A stretch of DNA of 64,000 bases from Desulfosporosinus youngiae DSM 17734. Its GTDB lineage: Bacteria; Bacillota; Desulfitobacteriia; Desulfitobacteriales; Desulfitobacteriaceae. Location: positions 3,306,226-3,370,225 of the forward strand of contig NZ_CM001441.1 of assembly GCF_000244895.1 (NCBI RefSeq), written 5' to 3'. Numbering within the stretch: position 1 is the first letter of the stretch; the number at the start of each line of letters is the position of its first letter. The notes beneath the pieces are model-generated. The model worked only from the letters and a program-made list of their open reading frames with translations, had not been told where the DNA came from and did not search any database. Both the position numbers and the translations under genes were made by a program. Shown piece after piece: positions 13,662 to 16,083 of this stretch.

Positions 13662-15029
13662 TTAATTAGTAAGGCTGATAATCGGGGCAGGTATTCGCCC
13701 GCCGCGATGCACAAACATGTTTGACGAATAAGGATGTATGGCTATAATAGGCGCTCCTCCCAAAAGCCCTCCAAATTCCACCCGCTCTCCTGCCTTCTTG
13801 CCAATGGCCGGGATCACTCGAACCGCCGTTGTTTTCTTATTAATCATCCCTATAGCCGCTTCATCCGCTATAATCGCTGAAATCGTTTCTGAACTGACAT
13901 CACCCGGTAAGGCAATCATATCTAAGCCAACTGAACAGACACAGGTCATAGCTTCCAGCTTATCAAGGGTTAAGGCTCCTTCTTCCACGGCTCTCACCAT
14001 TCCCGCATCCTCTGAAACCGGAATAAAAGCACCACTCAAACCTCCGACGTGAGACGAGGCCATCGCTCCTCCCTTTTTAACGGCGTCATTCAGCAAGGCC
14101 AAGGCTGCAGTGGTTCCATGGGTTCCACATCGTTCAAGACCCATATTCTCAAGGATTTCTGCGACACTGTCTCCAATTGCCGGTGTCGGCGCGAGAGAAA
14201 GATCGACAATTCCAAACGGAACATTTAAGGATTTTGAGGCAGCTCGTCCGATGAGTTCCCCCATACGAGTGATTTTAAAGGCAGTTTGCTTAATCAAATT
14301 GGATAGCTCACTAAAATCTGACTGGGGATATTCTTTTACAACCTTTGCGACAACCCCCGGACCACTTACACCGACATTGATCACACAATCCGGTTCTCCT
14401 ACGCCATGGAAAGCGCCGGCCATGAAGGGATTATCTTCCGGGGCATTGCAGAAAACCACTAATTTTGCAGCCCCTATCCCATCTTGCTCCGCAGTAAGTT
14501 GGGCAGATTGCAGAATCACATTCCCCATTTTCAGAACCGCATCCATGTTAATTCCTGCTTTTGTGCTGCCAATATTCACTGACGAACAGACAAATTCAGT
14601 CTCACTGAGTGCTTGCGGTATAGCATCAATAAGTGCCATATCCCCGGCTGTAAACCCTTTTTGAACAAGGGCGGAAAAACCACCGATAAAATTGATTCCG
14701 ATCTCCCGGGCGGCCTTATTTAACGCTTTAGCAATCCGTACCATTTCCTCTGAGTTCATCCGGGCTGCCGCAATCGCTATGGGTGTTACCGATACCCGTT
14801 TATTGATGATAGGTATCCCGTAACGAGCTGAAATTTGCTCGCCTACGGCCACCAATCGTCCGGCATTCTTAGTGATCTTATCGTAAATGTTTGTCTCCAG
14901 CTTACCGATATCATCGGTGCAGCAGTCCAGCAGGCTGATTCCCATTGTAATAGTACGGATATCAAGGTTTTCTTTATGTATCATGTTAATCGTTTGTTGG
15001 ATTTCTTCGCGTGCGAACGTGATTGTCAT
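13662..15029 (-). CDS. UPF0210 (DUF711, PFL-like) protein
   Basis: 455 residues, the usual family size. Family signatures: [15 protein letters not shown] near residue 20, [33 protein letters not shown] and a Gly-rich C-terminus ([14 protein letters not shown]). The family has a pyruvate-formate-lyase-like fold prediction, but its reaction is not established. It is nearly always paired with the UPF0237 ACT protein, as here (40-base gap, same strand). The start could be the ATG at 15029 or the internal ATG at MIHKENL. Confidence 0.9.
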
Positions 15030-15068
15030 GATTTCCCTCCACTATTTCCTTAATCCTCTGGGATTCCT

Positions 15069-15365
15069 CTAGATACGGTGCATAAACCTAAAAATATCTT
15101 CGTGTTGAACCTTTACCTGCAAACCTTTGCCATTTCCCTCTTGTTCCAGTAAGCGCGCTAATTCCACAAGCTCTATGGTAGATGGTTCTAAGTCGACGAC
15201 CATGATCATCGTGAAAAATTCGTTCAAAATGGTTTGACTAATATCCAATACATTGACACGATATTCCGCAAGACGCCCGGTAACCCAGGCAATAATTCCA
15301 ATCTGATCACGTCCTAATACAGTGATAATTGCACGGTTAGAGTTTTCATTTTGTGTCATAGTCAT
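15069..15365 (-). CDS. ACT-domain protein, UPF0237
   Basis: 98 residues forming one ACT domain: RAIITVLGRDQIGIIAWVTGRLAEY, then VLDISQTILNEFFTMIMVVDL. ACT domains bind small ligands such as amino acids and usually regulate a partner. The partner is most likely the UPF0210 protein encoded immediately downstream. GAGAGGAAGAACC precedes the ATG. Confidence 0.9.
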   Translation of the reverse strand: MTMTQNENSNRAIITVLGRDQIGIIAWVTGRLAEYRVNVLDISQTILNEFFTMIMVVDLEPSTIELVELARLLEQEGNGKGLQVKVQHEDIFRFMHRI

Positions 15366-15584: not shown

Positions 15585-15612
15585 AAAGAGAGCTCAATTT
15601 CGAGCTCTCTTT
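15585..15612 (-). terminator. Terminator of the HesB-like selenoprotein gene
   Basis: AAAGAGAGCTC/GAGCTCTCTTT, an 11-bp stem with a 6-nt loop, 52 bases after the stop on the minus strand, ending CTTTATTT. Confidence 0.8.
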
Positions 15613-15663: not shown

Positions 15664-15990
15664 TTATGAACAGCTGCCGCCGCAACTGTCGCCACAGCCG
15701 CCGCCGGATTTCGCAGTACGAATTTCGAATCCGCCGCCATGGCTGGATTCAATAAAATCAATGACTGCCCCTTCTAAGTAACTGGTAAGTTTTTTATCCG
15801 TTAGTATGGATACACCGTGTTCTACATCGAGAATATCTTCATCCGTTTTTGACTCTTCCAGAGTCATGCCGAAATTCGGCCCACCTCAGCCAACGCCTGC
15901 AAGATAAAGGCGGAGAAATGCATCTTCTTTATTTTGGTTTTTAAGCACTTCTTTAACTTTCTGGGCAGCTATTTCAGTAATATTAACCAT
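15664..15990 (-). CDS. HesB/IscA-like selenoprotein (in-frame TGA read as Sec35)
   Basis: The frame from ATG 15990 (AAGGAG 8 bases upstream) runs MVNITEIAAQKVKEVLKN ... LRLYLAGVG, meets TGA at 15886-15888, and continues GGPNFGMTLEESK... to 15664, 108 residues in all. HesB/IscA relatives have Cys at this place in a CGGPSFG-like motif. The C-terminus GGGCGDSCGGSCS supplies further thiols. HesB-like selenoproteins are a described family in Firmicutes and other anaerobes. Alone, the part after TGA (15867-15664) would be a headless fragment with no ribosome site. The probable role is Fe-S or redox chemistry. SelA-D are not in the window. Confidence 0.85.
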
Positions 15991-16083
15991 TATCTTCACT
16001 CCTTTTTAACCAATTCAACTTAATATACCATACTTCTCGTTTTTTTAAAAGGCAAACTGCCAGAACAACAGCCCCGCGGCAGA

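Follow-up and report, generated by a model that had tools for sequence, protein, structure and literature searches.

A hesB-like reading frame with an in-frame UGA codon

The window analyzed here is the whole stretch of 64,000 nucleotides from Desulfosporosinus youngiae DSM 17734 presented above, and positions are counted from its first letter. Its minus strand carries a small hesB-like gene whose frame passes through a TGA triplet at codon 35 (Table 1). Reading this triplet as selenocysteine (Sec) gives a protein of 108 residues, with the terminal stop codon as the sole stop in the frame. The Sec residue, U35, lies in the context LAGVGUGGPNFGMTLEESK, and the protein ends in a Cys-rich tail, GGGCGDSCGGSCS, with C99, C103, and C107 (CGDSCGGSC). 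A preliminary description of this DNA had placed the gene and its TGA at these coordinates, which are borne out, and had called the ribosome-binding site strong; it had given no strand. It had also predicted that automatic annotation would truncate the gene, and the table 11 list of open reading frames (ORFs) of at least 40 amino acids indeed contains, for this frame, just a 67-amino-acid piece from an internal ATG (15867-15664).

Table 1. Features at the hesB-like locus (positions within the window)
Feature	Position	Strand	Remarks
hesB-like selenoprotein gene (predicted)	15664..15990	minus	108 codons + TAA; translation with TGA = Sec
In-frame UGA, predicted Sec codon (U35)	15886..15888 (read 15888-15886)	minus	aligned to first conserved Cys of E. 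coli IscA
Hairpin 1, GCCGA-AUU-UCGGC (hairpin of the preliminary description)	15868..15880	minus	+6..+18 after TGA
Hairpin 2, UGACUC-UGGAA-GAGUCA, probable SECIS core	15850..15866	minus	+20..+36 after TGA
Ribosome-binding site AAGGAG	15999..16004	minus	from sequence; 8 nt upstream of ATG
Promoter-like site, TTTAAA, 16 nt, TATATT, TG preceding	16022..16049	minus	consensus match only
Inverted repeat AAAGAGAGCTC-GAGCTCTCTTT, terminator-like	15585..15612	minus	3' of gene; visible in sequence
PRK05313-family and ACT-domain (PRK00194) proteins	13662-15365	minus (as Sec gene)	downstream of Sec gene

The promoter-like site is a weak prediction, the scan having returned three consensus matches on both strands of the region against 1.0 expected. 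A terminator scan of the region reported no terminator, including at the inverted repeat behind the gene. An Rfam search around the gene gave seven rows, none over the gathering score, and these were discarded; two of them, mir-46 and DapZ, coincide with inverted repeats.

The gene order HD - 79aa - hesB(U) - ACT - PRK05313 is complete in 12 of the 19 loci L002-L020 and partly present in L015 (3.8 kb of sequence) and L016, and it is absent from L013, L017, L018, L019, and L020. We considered a role tied to these neighbors and set it aside, given that none of the neighbors has an evident Fe-S or selenium link and that a terminator-like repeat follows the gene. From the lack of linked neighbors and the repeat, we infer that hesB(U) is transcribed alone.

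Conservation of the TGA site

The nearest named relatives are Desulfosporosinus contigs. Among the 18 nearest loci from named genomes (L002-L019; 59 to 94% identity), TGA occupies the site in 15 (L002-L012, L014-L016, and L019; 63 to 94% identity), which is more than expected by chance. The others have TGT (L013), TGC (L018), and AGT (L017), and L020 (38% identity) has TGT. A search of 45 genomes of the family yielded a match in 41 of them and at least one TGA-bearing copy in 38; these comprise 28 of the 29 genus members and 10 of the 16 family genomes outside the genus. G031, the one genus genome without a match, is 67% complete; the same search gave no match in G042, G043, and G044, and it found copies without TGA alone in G006, G036, and G037. 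In G003, G004, and G005, TGA is present just in distant copies (27 to 36% identity) and the closest copy lacks it; leaving these distant copies out, 35 of the 45 genomes have a close TGA copy.

These data bear on the simplest alternative, that the TGA is an ordinary stop and that the locus is a pseudogene, a sequencing error, or a pair of short ORFs (34 amino acids, and 67 amino acids from the ATG at 15867), as the table 11 reading would have it. However, a TGA copy occurs in most genomes of the family, the matches extend past the TGA on both sides, and the protein retains high identity to the 15 TGA-bearing loci among its closest relatives. Together with the constraint on synonymous sites just 3' of the TGA and the presence of the Sec machinery (both below), this makes an ordinary stop exceedingly improbable.

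The loci provided 114 distinct coding sequences and 110 distinct proteins. In the alignment of these proteins, the site column contains Sec in 59 rows, Cys in 50, Ser in 1, and Trp in none. An alignment of homologs with neither Cys nor Sec at this site had been named beforehand as one of two results that would speak against a selenoprotein; 109 of the 110 rows have one or the other, the exception being the Ser row. Almost all Sec rows (58 of 59) read UxGP, and the remaining one reads UGEP. The 51 Cys/Ser rows comprise 31 with CGGP or CSGP; 16 with CSGF, CSGL, CTGF, or CAGY; and 4 with CGIP, CDRP, or SDGP.

Some copies have features of their own. L160, L161, L162, and L163 encode a second, more distant UxGP protein with TGA (32 to 36% identity), which accompanies a closer Cys copy in G003, G004, and G005 and a closer TGA copy in G007. 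The Ser row stems from a paralog (L191, with a protein identical to that of L017) in which the site reads SDGP and the rest of the protein is kept; either a selenol or thiol is dispensable there or this copy is losing its function. In the family search, one copy (L176; G023:C239:23697-23990) had two TGA triplets, and the extracted sequence ends at the second.

RNA-level constraint and two hairpins downstream of the UGA

We compared synonymous differences among 25 Sec rows of at least 70% identity, with 14 Cys rows as a control. In codons 36 to 47, directly behind the UGA, the Sec rows showed 162 differences in 3,038 comparisons (0.053) versus 405 in 785 (0.516) for the Cys rows, the row pairs being related rather than independent. 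In other stretches, the values were 0.33 to 0.59 for Sec rows and 0.32 to 0.49 for Cys rows. This tenfold rarity of synonymous differences in Sec rows relative to Cys rows indicates that the RNA itself is under selection; where the Sec codon is missing, the stretch is free to vary.

The constrained codons underlie two hairpins. Hairpin 1, which falls within codons 36 to 41, had been singled out in the preliminary description as starting 5 bases after the TGA, and it is indeed present (15880-15868). Hairpin 2 lies under codons 42 to 47. Its loop can be drawn as UGGAA at 25 nt past the UGA or, with a closing U-A pair, as GGA at 26 nt, on a stem of 6 to 7 bp. According to a figure legend in PMC13188914, bacterial SECIS elements have a spacing of 16 to 37 nt, a loop of 3 to 9 nt with a G in its first two positions, a stem of 4 to 16 bp, and a minimum free energy (MFE) of at most -7.5 kcal/mol. 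Hairpin 2 has these properties, its energy coming only narrowly within the limit: it is -7.7 kcal/mol with one flanking base per side (z of -3.68; 0 of 200 shuffles as good) and -6.9 kcal/mol for the bare 17-mer.

Pairing is also well conserved in hairpin 2. Across 52 distinct Sec windows, 305 of 312 cells are paired, while sliding the partner by 1 to 3 columns gives a fraction of at most 0.50. The compensatory changes include G-C to A-T (5), G-C to T-A (1), A-T to G-C (6), and C-G to T-A (2). In hairpin 1, 212 of 260 cells are paired in the 52 Sec windows, versus a fraction of at most 0.57 when slid. In Sec rows of at least 60% identity, the two hairpins are paired in 171 of 174 (hairpin 2) and 141 of 145 cells (hairpin 1). 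In Sec rows below 60% identity, hairpin 2 holds at 134 of 138, whereas hairpin 1 drops to 71 of 115. For comparison, 32 Cys/Ser windows of at least 52% identity have 153 of 192 cells paired in hairpin 2 and 130 of 160 in hairpin 1. A rule-based scan, run without an energy limit, for a hairpin of at least 5 bp with a loop offset of 24 to 27 found one in 54 of 59 Sec rows versus 10 of 51 Cys/Ser rows. By this strict definition, five Sec rows are without the hairpin, and some Cys copies (L106, L113, L114, L182, and L183) retain one.

Hairpin 2 is probably the SECIS core: it conforms to the published rules, and distant Sec relatives retain it with compensatory changes. The sequences also speak to some extent for hairpin 1 as the core: in close Sec rows it is better paired than in Cys/Ser rows, compensatory changes occur in it as well (among the 52 windows, G-C to A-T in 7 and to T-A in 4), and its codons are constrained in Sec rows (138/1,688 synonymous differences versus 284/482 in Cys rows). 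However, its AUU loop starts 10 nt past the UGA and contains no G, which places it outside the spacing and loop rules of the legend in PMC13188914; it is less stable (-5.6 kcal/mol, a value equaled or bettered by 28 of 200 shuffles); and the codons under hairpin 2 are tighter still (24/1,350 in Sec rows versus 121/303 in Cys rows). With its poor retention in distant relatives, a core function of hairpin 1 appears very unlikely, and it may instead be an accessory part of the signal in the close group. The comparison points to the covarying hairpin as the SECIS core, in place of the one that first catches the eye.

Selenocysteine machinery in the same genome

The preliminary description had made its reading depend on a Sec machinery, and all components searched for are present in the same genome (5.66 Mb). 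We found selA (SelA, 486.9 bits), selB (SelB, 360.9 bits versus a cut-off of 242.25), and two selD genes over the cut-off (406.4 and 370.2 bits). A tRNA-Sec gene with anticodon tca reached 65.1 bits with the Rfam model, which alone is not specific (two tRNA-Ser genes and 5 of 14 control genomes also pass its cut-off), and was confirmed by ARAGORN. The SelA and SelB cut-offs were passed in 2 of the 14 controls each. Across the family, 35 of the 38 TGA-bearing genomes had a selA match, versus 3 of the 7 without a TGA copy (Fisher p of 0.007, not corrected for relatedness); the TGA-bearing genomes in which selA was not found are G030, G040, and G041, with completeness of 85, 78, and 90%, respectively.

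The 406.4-bit selD (L029; G000:C1:4833712-4834641) adjoins selA and has an in-frame TGA of its own, and its product is probably itself a selenoprotein.

UGA readthrough is known in bacteria, and the codon might be read without selenium, by a near-cognate tRNA, as Trp or another sense residue. This is hardly credible here, given that the 110 aligned relatives show a Sec codon, Cys, or Ser at the site and never Trp, that Sec rows preserve the SECIS-type hairpin, which has mostly degenerated in Cys rows, and that the genome encodes both tRNA-Sec and SelB.

Family assignment and predicted fold

When Sec is replaced by Cys, the protein scores above the cut-offs of Pfam Fe-S_biosyn (PF01521; 41.5 bits, cut-off 26.3) and NCBIfam TIGR00049 (72.8 bits, cut-off 58.8). 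Under the same substitution, it stays below the cut-offs of the two dedicated models, TIGR01911 (HesB_rel_seleno; 53.8 bits, cut-off 66.35) and NF038090 (IscA_HesB_Se; 64.7 bits, cut-off 85). A six-frame search with NF038090 scored the same gene at 57.6 bits, so Sec copies lose about 7 bits in such searches. No genome of the 82 in the class passed the TIGR01911 cut-off, while 1 of 14 control genomes did, and NF038090 passed its cut-off in none of the 82 class genomes and in none of 299 phylum genomes.

Residues 3 to 102 align with E. coli IscA, and U35 falls on the first conserved Cys of IscA and begins a UGGP motif, in agreement with the earlier claim that the TGA occupies a Cys position before GGP. 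An AlphaFold2 model had a mean pLDDT of 84.3, with residues 96 to 102 and 104 to 108 under 50. Foldseek matched it to nine PDB chains at E values up to 0.001, among them HI1723, E. coli IscA, IscA with a [2Fe-2S] cluster, AQ_1857, SufA, and DsrR; the predicted fold matches IscA (1s98, 1r94, and 1x0g) and SufA (2d2a).

HesB-like selenoproteins are a described family (PMC1794560, 2006), for which the review PMC13188914 gives the motif UxGP and the model TIGR01911 and for which a table in PMC5029168 lists 90 proteins from 86 organisms. The gene combines an IscA/HesB domain, a TGA aligned to Cys and followed by xGP, a Sec machinery, and a hairpin fitting the SECIS rules, and it is a member of this family rather than a new kind of selenoprotein. 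As these sources describe the family, it shares with our protein the small size, the IscA/HesB type, the Sec ahead of xGP, and anaerobic Firmicutes among the hosts; our protein differs in its longer Cys-rich tail and in its scores under the cut-offs of the family models. With the A-type carriers IscA, SufA, and ErpA it has in common the fold, the site equivalent to Cys35, and a TIGR00049 score above the cut-off. Unlike them, it has Sec for Cys35, GGP and not SGM or SGF after the site, and a CGDSCGGSC tail that is not of the CGCG type, so that the three conserved Cys of these carriers (C35 and the CGCG pair) are not found in it.

Frame, TGA conservation, machinery, RNA-level constraint, and fold family are all visible in the sequence data, and on these grounds the gene very probably encodes a HesB-like selenoprotein with an IscA-type fold, in which Sec replaces the first conserved Cys ahead of GGP. 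A selenoprotein is thus supported by sequence even though a standard-code gene caller would cut it to a fragment and neither of the dedicated NCBI models scores it above its cut-off.

The name Desulfosporosinus is absent from the main texts of PMC1794560, PMC13188914, and PMC5029168. In a survey of the literature on HesB-like and Desulfosporosinus selenoproteins, covering mostly titles, no title dealt with this gene, which does not imply that it is unpublished or unannotated. The archaeal protein MMJJ_08070 of Methanococcus maripaludis bears the same family name, and PMC11097638 describes its identification as a selenoprotein through mutagenesis and 75Se labeling; the same paper cites an unpublished observation that nitrogen fixation is unimpaired in a disruption mutant.

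Proposed decoding and role

From the conserved features, we infer that Sec is actually inserted in this organism, and the sequences strongly support a mechanism in which SelB places it at the UGA, hairpin 2 being the putative SECIS core. Translation would start at the ATG behind AAGGAG, the stem-loop 20 to 36 nt downstream of the UGA would recruit SelB with Sec-tRNA-Sec, and after Sec has been put in, translation would continue into the Cys-rich tail with its three cysteines. The role that we consider most likely is metal or Fe-S handling, in which the U35 selenolate and the tail cysteines would serve as ligands or as a redox-active group; a redox role is, according to PMC13188914, the usual guess for uncharacterized selenoproteins. 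Since the tail was modeled with a pLDDT under 50, the ligand set of the Desulfosporosinus protein is putative.

Cys paralogs and their genetic neighborhood

A tree of the 110 proteins, built by a quick method from 108 columns with the Sec column removed, left 47 of 107 inner branches open. The Sec label requires five changes on this tree, three of them forced by starred branches, and 18 distant Sec rows are placed beyond the midpoint root, a root that serves for drawing only. The 28 Cys rows that group with the Ser row (SH-aLRT of 94) are nested together with 17 Sec rows in a starred fork (98), and more Sec rows branch outside the fork. This nesting suggests that Sec was converted to Cys in the group, in line with Desulfitobacterium hafniense, whose Cys HesB-like protein has a remnant SECIS according to a figure legend in PMC1794560. 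We also considered whether the family is separate from the known HesB-like selenoproteins and dropped this idea, as one or several origins of Sec both fit a tree of 108 columns with 47 of 107 branches open.

Three Cys paralogs of this group, at 1520375, 232682, and 3504732, occur in the same genome as the Sec copy, and they look Sec-derived. The one at 1520375 follows an ORF that matches the C-terminal part of FdhA (L200:3688-5217; G000:C1, about 1519187-1520716), and the one at 232682 follows selD, yedF, and an 83-amino-acid ORF (L202:2213-4524; G000:C1, about 230712-233023). Among the 11 Cys-group loci with more than 2.5 kb of sequence, an fdhA match lies beside 6 (53 to 100% identity, L200 included) and yedF beside 1; none of the 40 Sec loci with more than 2.5 kb of sequence had a match to selD, yedF, the 83-amino-acid ORF, or fdhA. 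One genus has a kept Sec copy as well as Sec-derived-looking Cys paralogs that often adjoin fdhA or yedF, a testable setting for the function of HesB-like selenoproteins. A weak fdhA match (25%) also lies at L117, a Cys locus that does not belong to the group. L114 has an fdhA neighbor that is missing from its close relative L113.

A further idea is that the U35 selenolate is a natural ligand for an Fe-S (or Fe-Se) cluster that can be transferred and that the protein and its Cys paralogs serve selenium-enzyme maturation. Given the Cys copies beside fdhA and in the selD-yedF cluster, family members would then carry selenium or Fe-S specifically for formate dehydrogenase and for selenium-cofactor pathways. 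We regard this as unlikely. According to a structural study of E. coli IscA cited in PMC5471300, the cluster is bound by the two tail cysteines and Cys35 takes no part, which is an argument against cluster ligation by U35.

Within the L202 cluster, yedF matches TIGR03527 with 212.8 bits versus 110, and selD is the second selD of the genome, the one without TGA. The 83-amino-acid protein between yedF and hesB(C) is presumably DUF3343-like, and it matched none of the NCBIfam models at 1e-8. A gene of the cysteine desulfurase family precedes the cluster on the opposite strand.
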